DNA of 64,000 bases from Spirochaetales bacterium (lineage in GTDB: Bacteria; Spirochaetota; Spirochaetia; DSM-27196; Alkalispirochaetaceae): assembly GCA_028282545.1 (NCBI GenBank), contig JANQHT010000070.1, positions 1 through 64,000 on the forward strand. Direction: 5' to 3'. Within the stretch, counting starts at the first letter, position 1. Every line of letters starts with the position of its first letter. The translations under genes and the position numbers were made by a program. The notes below the pieces were generated by a model. The model was not told the DNA's origin. It saw only the letters and a program-made list of their open reading frames with translations, and made no database searches. Shown one piece after another: positions 5,038-11,122 of the stretch.

Positions 5038-5823
5038 ATGAAACGACTGTTACACGTGATTGCAGATTACAAACCGATGTCCCAGGAGTTTGGAGAGATC
5101 CTTCAGCGCCTGTGGACGCAGAACTGGGATCTCGACCTGGCAATCGTCCCGACGTCGGTACCGCCTATGGACACGGTGGGCACCGGTTTCATCGTGTACC
5201 AGCTCGCGGTGGGGCACAATCCGCCGGGAACGGTCGTGTACGCCAATACGGCGCCGCGGAAGGAACGGAAGTCGCCAATGGAAGACAACGCCGGAGAGAA
5301 ACTGACGTATGCCCGGCTGGAGAACGACGTGGAACTGGTGGTTGTGAACAGTGGTTTGAGTTTGTCGCTCGTGAAGGACCACATCGTGGAACTGCGAGCG
5401 GTCGAAGTTTCTCACAGGGGGAGCCAGTTCCGCAGCCGAGACTTCTTTCCACCGGTAGTGGCGGATATCCTCCACGGGCGCCACGCGGAACGCCTCCGCG
5501 ACGCGATTGACCCGGCAACGATCCCTAAGATGGCCTCTTCCGTTGTCATGTGGACCGACGGTTTCGGGAACATCAAGACGAGCGTTCGCCGGAGCCGGAG
5601 TACCTGGGAAGAGGGACGCAAGGTGCACGTGGCGATCAACGATAAGCGCGCCACGGCGCTTGTCACCGGCGGCGTCTTTGCCGTGGACGAGGGCGAGATG
5701 GCGTGGGCGGTCGGTTCGAGCGGGTTCGACGACCCCTTCATGGAAATCCTGCTCCGCGGGGGAAGCGCGGCGGACCTCTTTGACCATCCGCACGCTGGAA
5801 TGAAAATCGAGATTTCGTCGTAA
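5038..5823 (+). CDS. SAM hydroxide adenosyltransferase-like protein (DUF62-related)
   Basis: This 261-residue protein resembles the S-adenosyl-L-methionine hydrolase / hydroxide adenosyltransferase fold. It has a block like 'FPxGTVxVVxxDP' (NPPGTVVYANTAPRK, about residues 61-75), 'NSGLSLSLV' around residue 104, 'SRDFFPPVVADIL' (about 133-145), and 'WTDGFGNIKTSV' (about 171-182), matching the family's 'DxFGNxxTN'. The canonical N-terminal 'TDFGxxDxYVG' is not visible, so it is a divergent member. It begins at an ATG without a Shine-Dalgarno, 7 nt after the -10-like TACACT at 5025-5030. It stands alone. If active, it would split SAM to adenosine and methionine, and metK, ahcY and adenosine kinase in this window would handle the products. 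Confidence 0.5.
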   Translation: MKRLLHVIADYKPMSQEFGEILQRLWTQNWDLDLAIVPTSVPPMDTVGTGFIVYQLAVGHNPPGTVVYANTAPRKERKSPMEDNAGEKLTYARLENDVELVVVNSGLSLSLVKDHIVELRAVEVSHRGSQFRSRDFFPPVVADILHGRHAERLRDAIDPATIPKMASSVVMWTDGFGNIKTSVRRSRSTWEEGRKVHVAINDKRATALVTGGVFAVDEGEMAWAVGSSGFDDPFMEILLRGGSAADLFDHPHAGMKIEISS

Positions 5824-6127: not shown

Positions 6128-6160
6128 TGGTAAAGTTAGCGTCAACTAACTATTTTACCA
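6128..6160. promoter_or_regulatory. Nested palindrome upstream of the metal/chelate importer
   Basis: An outer pair TGGTAAA (6128-6134) and TTTACCA (6154-6160) encloses an inner pair AGTTAG (6134-6139) and CTAACT (6146-6151). The GTTAG..CTAAC core resembles half-sites bound by DtxR/IdeR-type iron regulators (family knowledge). Its place 33 bp before the binding-protein gene fits a metal-responsive operator. The alternative is an mRNA hairpin in the leader. Confidence 0.5.
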
Positions 6161-6192: not shown

Positions 6193-7317
6193 ATGGAAAA
6201 ACGTATGAACCGTACCGTCGTAGTGTTTGTGTTGATGATCATGGGCGCAGTGCTCGGTGTTTCCACCGTCTTTGCGAGCGGCGCCGGTGAGATGGAATCG
6301 GCCGCGGGGTCGACAATAACGATCACCGATCAAACGGAACGGGAGGTTACCGTACCGGTTCCGGCCCGGCGGATCATCACGATCCCTATTCCGGCGGCCA
6401 GCATGATGATCGCTATCGATGGAGGACCGGAACGCCTGGTGGGCATGCATTCCAAGTCGAAGTCGGCTCTGGAAGAGGGGATCTTACGCGAGTTTTACCC
6501 GGAAGCCCTTGCGATCCGAAGCGACGTTGTGGGCGATGGTTTTGTGCCGAACGTTGAGACGATTCTCTCGATGGACCCCGATCTCGTCCTTCAATGGGGC
6601 CATTTAGGGGTCGATGTCGTTCAGCCTCTGGAGAATGCCGGTATCAACACCGCTCTTTTGCTTTACGGGACGCAGGAGTACCTGGAGGGGTGGATTTCGA
6701 CCTTCGGAACCGTACTGGGCCGTGAGGATAAGGCAGACCGAATCATCAACTGGCACCATGAGACTCGTGATTTGATCGAGCAGGAAGTCGCGGAGATACC
6801 GGAACGTGAAAAACCGAGGGTTCTCTACTTCCTGCGTTGGCTCTCCGGCAAGCGGGTGGCCGGAAGCGGTACCTATAACGATTACTACATCGGTCTTGCC
6901 GGTGGGGTGAACCCGGCCGCGGAGCTTTCCCGTTTCTCCGAGGTAAGCGAGGAGCAGATCATCGCCTGGGACCCGGAGGTGATTCTTCTCAACGGTTTCG
7001 AGTCGGAGCTTTCGCCTGAAGACGTGTACGCCAATGAACGGCTCGCCGATGTGAGTGCGGTGCGAAATCGACGGGTGTACAAGATCCCCTTGGGCGGCTA
7101 CCGCTGGGATCCCCCCAATCAGGAGTCTCCGTTGATGTGGAAATGGCTCACCATGGCGTTTCACCCCGATCGATTCGACTGGGAGCTCCGCAACGAGATC
7201 GCAGAGGCGTACGAGTGGATCTACGGCCACGTGCCGACCTCCGATCAGATCGACGGAATCCTTCGCACCGGTATGAACGCCGACGCGTCCGGGTACGCCC
7301 GGTTTGAGGCCGAGTAA
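6193..7317 (+). CDS. Periplasmic binding protein of an iron-chelate/cobalamin-type ABC importer
   Basis: The 374-residue protein has a signal peptide (hydrophobic about residues 9-24, ending 'VFASGAGEME') and a FecB/BtuF-type fold: 'ITITDQTEREVTVPVPARRII' followed by a region with 'NVETILSMDPDLVLQW' and 'EEQIIAWDPEVILLNG', hallmarks of class III binding proteins (PF01497). AAGGAG lies 9 nt before the ATG at 6193, favouring it over an upstream in-frame start. It is the first gene of a five-gene operon (6193-11122). The ligand is probably a metal chelate; which one is not visible. Confidence 0.85.
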   Translation: MEKRMNRTVVVFVLMIMGAVLGVSTVFASGAGEMESAAGSTITITDQTEREVTVPVPARRIITIPIPAASMMIAIDGGPERLVGMHSKSKSALEEGILREFYPEALAIRSDVVGDGFVPNVETILSMDPDLVLQWGHLGVDVVQPLENAGINTALLLYGTQEYLEGWISTFGTVLGREDKADRIINWHHETRDLIEQEVAEIPEREKPRVLYFLRWLSGKRVAGSGTYNDYYIGLAGGVNPAAELSRFSEVSEEQIIAWDPEVILLNGFESELSPEDVYANERLADVSAVRNRRVYKIPLGGYRWDPPNQESPLMWKWLTMAFHPDRFDWELRNEIAEAYEWIYGHVPTSDQIDGILRTGMNADASGYARFEAE

Positions 7318-7326
7318 GCCGGCCCA

Positions 7327-8361
7327 TTGACAACTAAAACACGAACCCGGACGAGTTCGATCGTCTGGGTTCTTCTTATTCTCGGACTACTTGTCTCCGT
7401 CTTGATCTCCTTCGGACTCGGACGATATGCGGTGCCGTTGCCACACGTAGTGGGGGTCCTGTTTCAGCGGCTCCTGCCCATTGAGCCCTATTGGAGCGCT
7501 ACCGATGCGCGGGTCGTTACGCTGATTCGTCTTCCCCGCATTCTTCTCGCGCTGGTATCGGGAGCGGGACTGGCGCTCAGCGGCGCCGTACTCCAAGGGA
7601 TCTTTCGCAATCCTCTTGTGGGTCCCCAGGTGATCGGCGTCTCGACCGGAAGCGGATTCGGCGGGGCCTTGGCGATTCTGTTCTTCAGTAGCCAGTTCAT
7701 GATGATGGGTTTCGCCTTCGTGTTCGGCCTCATTTCCGTTGCGATCGTCTTTGCACTCAGCCGAATGCACGGGCGGTCTCCGGTGCTGATGGTTGTGCTG
7801 GCCGGTATAATCGCCGGAGCCCTGTTCAACGCGCTGACCTCTCTTATCAAGTACGTCGCCGATCCCTATGACAAGCTTCCGGCGATCGTGGTGTGGCTCA
7901 TGGGGAGTTTTGCAACCACCACGTACAAGACGTTGGCAATCGCCGCGGTTCCGATCGTACTTGCGGGGATGTTCCTCTATCTTGTCCGGTTTCGGTTGAA
8001 TATCGTGAGCCTGGGAGAAGAGGAGGCTGAGGCGATGGGGGTCAACACCGATCGACTACGGTGGATGATCCTAACCGCCGTATCGGTCGTGACGGCTGCG
8101 ATCGTATCGGCGGCGGGAATCGTCGGCTGGATCGGACTCGTCGTTCCACACATCGCCCGAATGATCGTGGGCCCCGATCACCGCCGGTTGCTGCCGGCCG
8201 CCGCGGTGATTGGAGGAATCTACACGTTGTGGATCGACAACATCGCCCGTGCTGCTACCCCCGCCGAGATTCCCTTGGGCATCATCACGGCGATTATCGC
8301 GGTTCCCGTCTTTGGGTACCTGTTGAAACGGACCCAGGCGAAGGGGTGGAAACATGATTGA
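7327..8361 (+). CDS. FecCD/BtuC-type ABC transporter permease
   Basis: This 344-residue multi-spanning inner-membrane protein carries the FecCD signatures 'LPRILLALVSGAGLALSGAVLQ' (about residues 62-83, given in part) and 'GWIGLVVPHIARMIVGPDHR' near residue 270. The start is a TTG at 7327 with only a distant purine-rich stretch upstream, so the exact start is uncertain. It follows the binding-protein gene by 9 nt and overlaps the ATPase gene by 8 nt. It forms the channel of the importer. Confidence 0.9.
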   Translation: MTTKTRTRTSSIVWVLLILGLLVSVLISFGLGRYAVPLPHVVGVLFQRLLPIEPYWSATDARVVTLIRLPRILLALVSGAGLALSGAVLQGIFRNPLVGPQVIGVSTGSGFGGALAILFFSSQFMMMGFAFVFGLISVAIVFALSRMHGRSPVLMVVLAGIIAGALFNALTSLIKYVADPYDKLPAIVVWLMGSFATTTYKTLAIAAVPIVLAGMFLYLVRFRLNIVSLGEEEAEAMGVNTDRLRWMILTAVSVVTAAIVSAAGIVGWIGLVVPHIARMIVGPDHRRLLPAAAVIGGIYTLWIDNIARAATPAEIPLGIITAIIAVPVFGYLLKRTQAKGWKHD

Positions 8362-9160
8362 GTTCGACCGGGTCTCGTTTCGATATGAGAGCGGTAACGA
8401 CATCTTTAGAAACCACTCGTTTCGGCTGAAGCGTGGAGGGATTCTCGCGATTCTCGGACCGAACGGACGCGGGAAGACGACCCTGCTGAAGTGCATACTG
8501 GGGATTCTTACACCCACCAACGGACGGATCAGCGTAGACGGGGAGACCGGATACGTTCCTCAGCAAGCTTCAACGCTCTTTTCCTACACCGTGCTCGATA
8601 TGGTGGTGATGGGGCGAACCCGTCACATCGGATTCTTCTCATCGGCCCAGCCGCGGGATTATCGTATCGCGGAAGAGGCGCTGCGGACGGTCGGGGTGAA
8701 AGATCTCGTCGAACGCACCTTCATGGAGCTCTCCGGCGGGGAGCGCCAACTGGTCCTTCTGGCCCGGGCGGTTGCCTCGGAGTGTTCGCTTCTCATCCTG
8801 GACGAGCCTACCTCCGCGCTCGATTACCGGAATCAGCGGAAGGTTCTCCACGCGCTGGAGCGGTTGGCCCGGCAGCGGGACCTTACAGTGGTCTTCACAA
8901 CCCACTCGCCGAACCATGCCGCCTATCTCGCCGATCACGTCCTGATGATGCGCACTCCCGATCGCTATCGATTCGGTGTGATCGACGAGGTGATGACCGA
9001 AACCAATTTGGAAGAACTCTACGGAATCGAAGTGCGAAACGTAGCGTATGACTACTCCGGCGGTCGAGGACGGGCGATCGTGCCCGTACTTCATGCTTCA
9101 TCGTCGGATCAACAAGGAGAAAACCATGAACAAGATCGGTGTTCTGTACTCAGGCATTAG
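8354..9160 (+). CDS. ABC transporter ATP-binding protein (FecE/BtuD-type)
   Basis: The 268-residue ATPase has Walker A 'GPNGRGKTT', the Q-loop in 'GYVPQQAS', signature 'LSGGERQLV', Walker B 'LLILDEPTSALD' and the H-loop 'FTTHSPNHAAYLADHV'. It energises the permease encoded just upstream. Its last 35 nt overlap the start of the next gene, whose own Shine-Dalgarno (AAGGAG) lies inside this gene, so translation is probably coupled. Confidence 0.93.
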   Translation: MIEFDRVSFRYESGNDIFRNHSFRLKRGGILAILGPNGRGKTTLLKCILGILTPTNGRISVDGETGYVPQQASTLFSYTVLDMVVMGRTRHIGFFSSAQPRDYRIAEEALRTVGVKDLVERTFMELSGGERQLVLLARAVASECSLLILDEPTSALDYRNQRKVLHALERLARQRDLTVVFTTHSPNHAAYLADHVLMMRTPDRYRFGVIDEVMTETNLEELYGIEVRNVAYDYSGGRGRAIVPVLHASSSDQQGENHEQDRCSVLRH

Positions 9161-10400
9161 CTTTCAGCACCAGACACTGAACAATCCTACCTATCGAGGT
9201 CGGTTTGTTCCCATCGACATCTACGACCTCCCGAAGATCGACCTCTCGTTGTACGACGCGATCGTTGTGCCGCGGTCGGTTGATCAGGTAGCCCTAAACG
9301 ACTACAAGCGTGTTATCCGCGAATTCCTGGACCTTCCCGGAATCGTCGTCGCCCTGGGTGATTACCGGGGCGAATGGCTGCCCGGGTGCAAACCGGGCGG
9401 TTTTACCCCCGAAGACGACAATCCGCTGGTGAAGGCCTCGGATCACCCGATCCTCAACGGTTTGGAGTCGCCCGAACTCCATTGGCACCGCGGTACCAAC
9501 GGATTGTGCAGCCACGGTCATTTGATCGGGCCCGACGCGGCGAAAGCGCTCATCAAAAACTCCAAAGGGGACACGATTCTCTACGTCGACAGAACAACCA
9601 CCAAGGGAGTGATCCTTGCCGGAACGCAGTTCGATATCTTCTGCCACTGTTTTTCTCAGGATCAGGGTGCTCTCCGCGCAATGGAAAACCTCCTCGCCTG
9701 GATCGATGAAGAGGTCGCCCTGCAGCGTTCGCAACGGAACCGACGCAAGATCGCGGTTGTGTACAGTGGGCTTCACTTCCATCACGACCTCTTCACCCGG
9801 CCGGAGTACGACGATATGGAACTTGTCTATATTCGTCGGTTGGCGCGTACGGATCTCTCCCGCTATCGCGTATTGATCATTCCGCGGGAGACAAACCAGG
9901 AGATCTTGTATGCACAGCGTGAACAGATCATCACCTACCTGGAATCCGGGGGCACCGTGCTCTCCTTCGGTGAGGTGATCCTTCCCTGGGTGCCCGGGCT
10001 GGTGTGGCACAAAGCGCTTCCCGAAGTTCGCTATCCGGAAGACGCGGCGGAGCGGTACGATCGCGGATACGTCCAGACCGAAAATCTGGTGATTGAAGAG
10101 CCGGAGAACCCTCTTTTTGAGGGGATAACGATAGAGGATATGCGGTGGCACTACCACGGGGTTTTCGTTCCGACGGCGGGGCAGCGGACGCTTCTGTCCG
10201 ACGGAAAGGACAACGCCGTGATCCTCCTCGATGAGAGCAGCTTTGCCGGGACACTGCTTGCGACGACCCTCGACCCGGAAGAACATGCCGGATTTGGAGC
10301 GGTAACGATCACCGAACGCTTTCTTGAACGTTGTATGGCGTGGGTACGGGAGGTCGCCGCAAAACCCATACCACTGAATGACAGGGAGGATGAAACGTGA
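9126..10400 (+). CDS. Uncharacterised protein with two tandem glutamine-amidotransferase-fold repeats
   Basis: I do not recognise a named family. The 424-residue cytoplasmic protein is an internal duplication. Residues 1-200 and 208-415 align along their length: 'KIGVLYSGISFQH' with 'KIAVVYSGLHFHH', 'DAIVVPRSVDQ' with 'RVLIIPRETNQ', 'LGDYRGEWLPG' with 'FGEVILPWVPG', 'LHWHRGTNG' with 'MRWHYHGVF', and 'GVILAGTQFDIFCH' with 'GTLLATTLDPEEHAG'. The alternating beta strands and early 'P-R' turn suggest a ThuA/GATase1-like fold, but no nucleophile elbow Cys is clear. AAGGAG precedes the ATG at 9126. It is translationally coupled to the importer ATPase, suggesting a role in handling the imported chelate. 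Confidence 0.6.
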   Translation: MNKIGVLYSGISFQHQTLNNPTYRGRFVPIDIYDLPKIDLSLYDAIVVPRSVDQVALNDYKRVIREFLDLPGIVVALGDYRGEWLPGCKPGGFTPEDDNPLVKASDHPILNGLESPELHWHRGTNGLCSHGHLIGPDAAKALIKNSKGDTILYVDRTTTKGVILAGTQFDIFCHCFSQDQGALRAMENLLAWIDEEVALQRSQRNRRKIAVVYSGLHFHHDLFTRPEYDDMELVYIRRLARTDLSRYRVLIIPRETNQEILYAQREQIITYLESGGTVLSFGEVILPWVPGLVWHKALPEVRYPEDAAERYDRGYVQTENLVIEEPENPLFEGITIEDMRWHYHGVFVPTAGQRTLLSDGKDNAVILLDESSFAGTLLATTLDPEEHAGFGAVTITERFLERCMAWVREVAAKPIPLNDREDET

Positions 10401-11122
10401 GTATTCAGATAGACCGTGCGGCGCTCAAGACGATTCTTTACGGGACGCTGAGCTGCCGATGCTCGATAGCAACAGAGACCGAGCGGGCTCTGTGCGCCGC
10501 CATGACTCGGTCCGAAGGGGGCAAGCCCCGGCCTCCCGCGGGGCCGGAGGAGGAGGACGCCGGCGAGAACCTGGAACTCCAGCCCTATCTGGATATCGCC
10601 GACCGGGACCCGGCGCGGACACCCCTTCATCTCTTTGTCGACTTTTGTTCATACGCCCATGAAGACCCGGACACCTTTGCCATTACCCACGACGATTCGT
10701 TGCGGTACTTCAGTTGTCGCTACCACTTTGACCGCATGTTGCCGGGCGTCGATCCGATGAGGATACCGGATCCCGCAGTCCACCTGGTGGGTCACATGCT
10801 GTTGCCGGTAACCATCGTCGACCGAAAAAACGGCGTGTGTCGGTTCCGGCACGGCGATCGGCACGATCTCACCTTGCGGAACGTGTTCATTCCGCCGGAA
10901 GCGGCGTTCTCCGCCGCGCACTACTACGGGTTTCACTTTGGTATGCTGCTTACGCCGCTTACAACGCGCCAGGTGACGATGGTTGAGCGCCATCTCGGCC
11001 GGATTCCCGAGTTCAGCACCCTCGCTGAACGCGTTCGGGAGATCGATTACGCCGATTATCAGAGCTTCGGCAACCATCACGATCGAATCGCATCACGCTA
11101 CCGTGGTGCCATACCTCGGTAA
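10397..11122 (+). CDS. Uncharacterised histidine-rich protein of the importer operon
   Basis: This 241-residue protein has no recognised domain and no signal peptide or membrane segment. It has a Cys pair near the N-terminus (SCRCS, residues 14-18), a low-complexity Pro/Glu linker (about 35-55), then many His residues in short motifs: 'CRYHFDRM', 'HLVGHMLLP', 'HYYGFHFGM' and 'FGNHHDRI'. The GTG start overlaps the previous stop (GTGA) and has GGGAGGA upstream. Being last in a FecBCD-type operon and His-rich suggests binding of a metal or metal complex (inference). Confidence 0.55.
   Translation: MSIQIDRAALKTILYGTLSCRCSIATETERALCAAMTRSEGGKPRPPAGPEEEDAGENLELQPYLDIADRDPARTPLHLFVDFCSYAHEDPDTFAITHDDSLRYFSCRYHFDRMLPGVDPMRIPDPAVHLVGHMLLPVTIVDRKNGVCRFRHGDRHDLTLRNVFIPPEAAFSAAHYYGFHFGMLLTPLTTRQVTMVERHLGRIPEFSTLAERVREIDYADYQSFGNHHDRIASRYRGAIPR

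Follow-up and report, generated by a model that had tools for sequence, protein, structure and literature searches.

A stretch of 64,000 nucleotides from a Spirochaetales bacterium (assembly GCA_028282545.1, positions 1 to 64,000 of contig JANQHT010000070.1), hereafter referred to as the window, carries an operon in which the genes of an ATP-binding cassette (ABC) importer, fecB, fecC, and an ATPase gene, are followed by two further genes, designated here DUP and HIS. The DUP protein is composed of two homologous halves, an N-type and a C-type, and such pairs are linked to importer genes far beyond the window. The linkage and the pairing are well supported, and the DUP finding is confirmed and proves more general than the window alone could show. 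As a whole, we propose an iron-repressed chelate importer in which DUP would bind the chelate and help to release the iron, a proposal to which we give about an even chance.

The two halves of DUP

DUP (9126..10400, + strand) encodes 424 amino acids from an ATG that follows AAGGAG, and no signal peptide was evident. Its two paralogous halves of predicted glutamine amidotransferase (GATase) fold are an N-type half at 9126..9740 and a C-type half at 9747..10373 (both + strand), as placed by alignments of 19 rows for each type and, for the C-type half, also by an AlphaFold2 (AF2) model. The halves are 26-29% identical in the alignment, and the profile of each half of the window's DUP matched the other half with E values of 4e-26 and 1.5e-22. 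These results bear out the tandem homologous halves described in the initial annotation, which was made from the sequence without database searches.

N-type and C-type domains were distinguished by the profiles of both halves, built from the 19-row alignments, and every domain was assigned clearly. A C-type neighbour was present for 28 of the 29 N-type domains, the exception being a truncated copy in genome G008 (genomes and loci are cited by our own G and L identifiers). By our tally, the pairs occurred as nine N-C fusions and two frame-broken ones, six C-N fusions, and 11 split neighbours. In the phylogenetic tree, a single branch with support of 100/99 separated 29 N-type from 27 C-type domains; this branch was found in 100% of 200 bootstrap trees and had bacterial and haloarchaeal rows on each of its sides. 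The tree omits the row of locus L033 and two short fragments of the frame-broken L060 C-type domain, and the program warned of long branches and of one long-branch join, the detail within each side being unsure. The sequences identify the N-type and C-type halves as ancient paralogues from one duplication. Since both fusion orders and the split state occur, each keeping one N-type and one C-type domain, the two appear to work together, which implies that they would act as a hetero-pair.

Neither DUP nor HIS had a match in Pfam or NCBIfam up to an E value of 0.1, and a profile search of DUP against the sequences of the PDB gave E values of at least 0.18. The AF2 model of the C-type half was built from four rows (both halves of the window copy and of the copy in locus L006) and reached a predicted local distance difference test (pLDDT) score of 74.6 and a predicted template modelling (pTM) score of 0.76. 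In a Foldseek search with this model, the top PDB match was 2gk3 (E 5.1e-6), and the ThuA-like 4jqs as well as anthranilate-synthase amidotransferase chains were matched at E <= 1e-3. VIA-align 2 gave Z scores of 15.0 for 8aa2_G (192 residues, 3.8 A), 14.8 for 3soz (183 residues, 3.1 A), 14.5 for both 3rht (185 residues, 3.5 A) and 4jqs (186 residues, 3.3 A), and 13.4 for 1i7q_B. As modelled, the C-type half has the class I amidotransferase/ThuA-like fold.

The ThuA/GATase1-like features that had been noted at first are upheld by the fold of the modelled half, but no significant sequence match accompanied it. The cut-off of the Pfam ThuA family (PF06283, 33.4 bits) was not reached by any of 25 half-domains, three of which matched weakly (best E 0.021), and a fused relative scored 17.4 bits. 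Among the relatives, weak Pfam matches below the cut-offs were to DUF4159, ThuA, and DUF4350. Membership in ThuA was also examined by comparing the N-type profile with one ThuA protein from G050, a weak test that gave 0.5% and no support.

The cysteine nucleophile, which acts with His and Glu in class I glutamine amidotransferases, was not represented by a conserved column, Cys being present in at most 5 of the 19 N-type rows and in 8 of the 19 C-type rows in one column, where the window has Arg. Because neither type has a conserved Cys, an amidotransferase reaction is unexpected. In the C-type alignment, which like that of the N-type includes near relatives, the signature was WHxHG and LDPxxHxG, corresponding to W341-H342-x-H344-G345 and L382-D383-P384-x-x-H387-x-G389 of the window; W341, H342, G375, L382, D383, P384, H387, and G389 were invariant in the 19 rows, and H344 was kept in 17. 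The 19 N-type rows shared D53, G126, and G131 without exception, within features that comprise D53-Q54, G123..G126..G131, and a spirochaete form HWHxGxNGLCSHGH. These conserved residues may form a metal or chelate site.

Linkage to importer genes

In the window, fecB, fecC, the ATPase gene, DUP, and HIS follow one another in a single tight run on the + strand from 6193 to 11122, as judged from the list of open reading frames (ORFs) and the sequence, and form one operon. The overlaps read from the sequence were 8 bp between fecC and the ATPase gene, 35 bp between the ATPase gene and DUP, and 4 bp (GTGA) between DUP and HIS, the latter two confirming the coupling of DUP and HIS to the transporter genes that had been described.

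Similar pairs were found well outside the phylum. Searches by tblastn detected DUP in 31 plasmid records at an E value of 1e-3 and in 32 at 0.1, the hosts being Rhizobium, other Alphaproteobacteria, Cupriavidus, Aliivibrio, Paenibacillus, and the haloarchaeon Natribaculum. A set of 27 loci was compiled from the window, L006-L009, L031, L032, and 20 of the 32 plasmid records with a match; the plasmid sample is biased and contains several near-copies, and of the 12 records outside the count several look like near-copies by name. ABC-importer genes were found to adjoin the DUP pair or its remnant in 27 of 27 loci. The importers belonged to the FecBCD class in 21 loci, to the Nik/Dpp class in three (Paenibacillus L036, Paracoccaceae La6 L041, and G382 L032), to the Fbp class in the two loci of Natribaculum (in N. 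breve, only a substrate-binding protein (SBP) and a permease were found), and to the Ssu class in one (Chelatococcus L059). The check for co-occurrence with FecBCD genes suggested at the outset showed a linkage to importers that is not specific to FecBCD. A location of the families mostly away from transporters, named at the outset as the contrary outcome, did not occur for DUP. The first reading of DUP as part of an uptake system stands and is stronger, and the first interpretation overall is partly supported. No DUP or HIS was found in viral contigs, and no description of the N-type/C-type pair was found in the literature of the one library searched.

The tight linkage, the frequent overlap of DUP with the ATPase gene, and the absence from DUP of the conserved catalytic Cys of class I amidotransferases would also agree with a regulatory or gating subunit, which would dock on the ATPase or the permease and sense metal or ligand without any substrate chemistry. 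We consider this unlikely. The permeases of the FecBCD, Nik/Dpp, Fbp, and Ssu classes are unrelated or only distantly related. The sharing of DUP by the four classes fits a common substrate better than a common docking surface, and the ATPase gene of G382 is separated from DUP by 5.5 kb. The occurrence of DUP beside unrelated kinds of importers suggests an overlooked step in the handling of imported iron.

Within Spirochaetota, the DUP profile matched in six of 392 genomes, with G140 doubtful, and the HIS profile in four, and C-type matches were obtained in eight of 394 genomes of the class, one of them weak; within the phylum, DUP and HIS therefore occur rarely and in a patchy manner. G070 (L007) and G050 (L008) have the same order of fecB, fecC, ATPase gene, DUP, and HIS as the window, with identities to it of 68-70% for DUP and about 50% for HIS, and G041 (L006) lacks HIS but has genes for a permease, an ATPase, an SBP, and DUP. 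A decaying FecBCD-DUP locus in G008 (L009 4014-10303) has a permease gene, an ATPase gene, the SBP gene in two frames, a truncated N-type half, and an adjoining ZnuABC-like set. The doubtful match in G140 (L033; E 6.1e-4, C-type-like 8e-7), which lies on a 7.7-kb contig where no importer was found, and a match in G071 (E 2.7e-4) were not included in the 27 loci.

Other genes also accompany the pair. An FmdE-like gene of about 170 amino acids was present in 11 of the 27 loci, with E values of 1.5e-4 to 0.011 to Pfam PF02663 where matched, below the cut-off, and TonB receptor genes adjoin the DUP loci of Methylocystis, Methylosinus, and Cupriavidus. In L057 (8830-13161), L040 (6878-12839), and L058 (5461-12600), the FecBCD genes and the FmdE-like gene lead directly into phn C-P lyase genes, the plasmids being those of Agrobacterium (A. 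vitis), Labrenzia, and Martelella.

With respect to the importer genes of the window, fecB (6193..7317, + strand) encodes the SBP, which matched Peripla_BP_2 (PF01497) with an E value of 5.8e-26, its start being our choice of the ATG at the proper spacing from AAGGAG. The permease gene fecC (7327..8361, + strand) belongs to the FecCD family (PF01032, E 3.1e-84), and the ATPase gene (8354..9160, + strand) encodes an importer ABC ATPase (PF00005, ABC_tran, E 1.2e-28). The three are consecutive and all exceed the Pfam cut-offs, in line with the FecBCD-type importer that had been annotated. No NCBIfam equivalog with a named substrate was reached, the best scores being 235 of 461 bits for the permease and 93.5 of 325 bits for the SBP. 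Upstream, a gene at 5038-5823 that resembles S-adenosylmethionine (SAM) hydroxide adenosyltransferases, with the C-terminal domain above the Pfam cut-off and the N-terminal domain below, has its end about 370 bases upstream of fecB. This gene had no match in the L007 or L008 loci.

Promoter boxes and the candidate metal

The palindrome GTTAGCGTCAACTAAC at 6135..6150 (+ strand), about 43 bp before the ATG of fecB, is a candidate box for a DtxR-type metalloregulator. A palindrome of the form RTTA-N8-TAAY was present at a similar distance upstream in all five spirochaete FecBCD and DUP operons for which upstream DNA was available, against a base rate of 0.024 per 350 bp and a chance per operon of 0.006 to 0.077 under an order-1 model. 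The DUP pair of G382 has such a site at -177. In G050, an identical 16-mer precedes the DUP operon and also lies about 600 bases before a feoB domain, and the gene after feoB has both iron-dependent repressor domains; this region (L085 7920-13189) contains the box, feoB, the repressor gene, and, farther on, a NicO-type gene. Among the 12 strong feoB-type loci of six genomes, 7 had at least one RTTA-N8-TAAY site, which in one case was 1.2 kb away, and similar boxes precede the DUP genes of G422 and occur near a DUF3793 gene in that genome. Upstream of the Nik/Dpp-type operon of Paenibacillus, the Fur 19-mer was matched at 18 of 19 positions at -70 (0 of 200 shuffles), and this match contains the exact 7-1-7 box TGATAATNATTATCA. 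These motifs make iron control of the DUP operons likely, as seen in relatives and not within the window's own genome, and point to iron as the best-supported metal.

Several observations weigh against this assignment. The RTTA-N8-TAAY pattern was derived from four of the five operons on which it was scored, which leaves G008 (single-site chance 0.037) and the feoB loci as the only independent cases. The genome of the window has no RTTA-N8-TAAY site at its feoB locus, and no second copy of the GTTAGCGTCAACTAAC 16-mer with 0-1 mismatches was found there. Fur-like 7-1-7 boxes with up to two mismatches were present in only 5 of the 27 loci, three of these being near-copies, and about 1.4 sites are expected in 435,638 bases of even composition by our estimate; by position, the boxes in the five loci are all ahead of importer or TonB-receptor genes. 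When 16 upstream regions were scored for Fur, most had no notable match. Alphaproteobacteria often use iron regulators other than Fur. Furthermore, a HupE/UreJ gene (HupE/UreJ_2) lies near DUP in La6, a NicO-type gene and a CbiA/ParA-like ATPase gene lie near DUP in G382, and the SBP of Chelatococcus matches those of sulfonate importers (SsuA).

Because of these neighbours in La6 and G382, nickel or cobalt is possible at those two loci, and the system as a whole might import nickel or cobalt chelates and not iron. FecBCD-type nickel importers exist. NikA-like SBPs, below the NikA cut-off, occur in three loci, and a nickel transporter of gastric Helicobacter is treated in the literature (PMC5140060). 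The exact Fur box at the Nik/Dpp-type operon of Paenibacillus and the boxes common to the spirochaete operons and feoB loci argue against these metals, which we regard as a quite unlikely general substrate. In addition, a link to nickel through CO dehydrogenase was not obtained, TIGR01702 exceeding its cut-off in 3 of 50 genomes and in none of the seven that bear DUP, in a search that covered no other nickel enzymes. The NicO-type protein of G382 (L032 3447-5216) has 590 amino acids, and its extra stretch at 355-459 resembles positions 237-346 of CO dehydrogenase (E 1.8e-5 to the NCBIfam CO dehydrogenase model and 0.036 to Pfam Prismane).

Alternatively, the importers could take up an organic ligand, such as a phosphonate, sulfonate, peptide, or opine, with DUP as a catabolic enzyme and the metal incidental. 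The run of FecBCD and FmdE-like genes into phn genes in Labrenzia, Martelella, and A. vitis, the resemblance of the Natribaculum SBP to PhnS2 (E 1.7e-16) and of the Chelatococcus SBP to SsuA, and the known connection of ThuA-like proteins with sugar metabolism would suit such a role. However, the phn link is limited to a few related plasmids, and an organic ligand leaves the iron-type promoter boxes and the TonB neighbours unexplained, so that we judge this explanation improbable.

In summary, iron as the metal, an action in the cytosol, the binding site, the release chemistry, and a role for HIS are what we infer for the chelate importer proposed here. FecB would capture the iron chelate, and FecC and the ATPase would import it. 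In the cytosol, the two ancient GATase-fold paralogues of DUP would form a built-in hetero-pair that binds the incoming ferric chelate, probably via the C-type His and Asp residues (W-H-x-H-G and D-P-x-x-H), and helps to free the iron, either through a change to the ligand or by keeping hold of the metal until it is handed over. HIS, which occupies the last place in the operon as the FmdE-like gene does at many other loci, would serve as a second cytosolic helper. More broadly, and only tentatively, the DUP pair might be a general iron-release module that was recruited separately by FecBCD, Nik/Dpp, Fbp, and Ssu importers in bacteria and archaea. On this reading, importers that take up a shared class of iron chelates would have in common a cytosolic step not described so far. 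To our knowledge, the release of iron from an imported chelate is understood for only a few chelates. If true, the proposal would point to a common release or handover step across importers of four classes, with iron-type promoters in two phyla, and many gene pairs now labelled 'hypothetical' in the genomes of rhizobia, methanotrophs, and haloarchaea would gain a function. No curated model of the N-C family was present in the searched libraries, and culturable hosts such as Rhizobium and Paenibacillus would allow a direct test of the hypothesis.

HIS and comparison with known systems

HIS (10397..11122, + strand) is an ORF of 241 amino acids with a GTG start and no recognised family. It has 13 His residues (5.4%) and six Cys residues including C20 and C22, so that the description 'His-rich' was a mild overstatement, whereas the Cys pair is invariant in all five intact HIS sequences (S-C20-x-C22), together with H110, H133, H180, and H199. 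In Pfam, a single chance-level match (GH3_C, 0.19) appeared up to an E value of 10, the profile search against PDB sequences gave only E values of at least 0.039, and tblastn found no HIS on plasmids. Structure prediction, which had been suggested for both proteins, was successful for the C-type half of DUP, but the AF2 model of HIS from one sequence was unusable (pLDDT 33.5). HIS did not appear to be an FmdE protein (hhalign probability 0.7%, no FmdE match in Pfam) or a third DUP-like domain (hhalign 0.2%).

Intact HIS occurs in five genomes and stands behind DUP in the window, G070, and G050, being missing from the other DUP loci. The link of HIS to the transporter operon therefore holds for three of the five intact copies but not for those of G001 and G002, in which HIS occurs without DUP and the genes after it encode a MerR regulator and a protein that resembles DapB/2,4-diaminopentanoate dehydrogenase (L016 7042-9945 and L017 9663-12404). 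A second, decayed HIS stretch in G050 (L008 1531-1755) has 46% identity over 103 residues and three TAG, and is also matched by the HIS profile. HIS lies at the operon end, as does the FmdE-like gene in many other DUP loci, and by this analogy our guess is that HIS might be a cytosolic metal-handling helper.

Compared with the FecBCD/BtuCDF-type importers of iron chelates and corrinoids, the window operon has the same Pfam families in consecutive genes, but it differs by the presence of DUP and HIS and by having no NCBIfam equivalog for a substrate. Structures of the FmdE family (PF02663) have been described (PMC2954224). An FmdE-like gene is a frequent companion of DUP, yet it is absent from the window, and HIS is not detectably related to that family. 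The C-type half of DUP shares its predicted fold with class I glutamine amidotransferases and ThuA-like proteins, whereas DUP differs from them by the lack of a conserved Cys, scores below the Pfam cut-offs, the pairing of paralogues, and the linkage to importers. Fes-type esterases and FhuF-type reductases are dedicated siderophore-releasing enzymes whose folds and families differ from those of DUP, and the proposed job of DUP would be similar to theirs, namely the cytosolic release of iron beside an importer.

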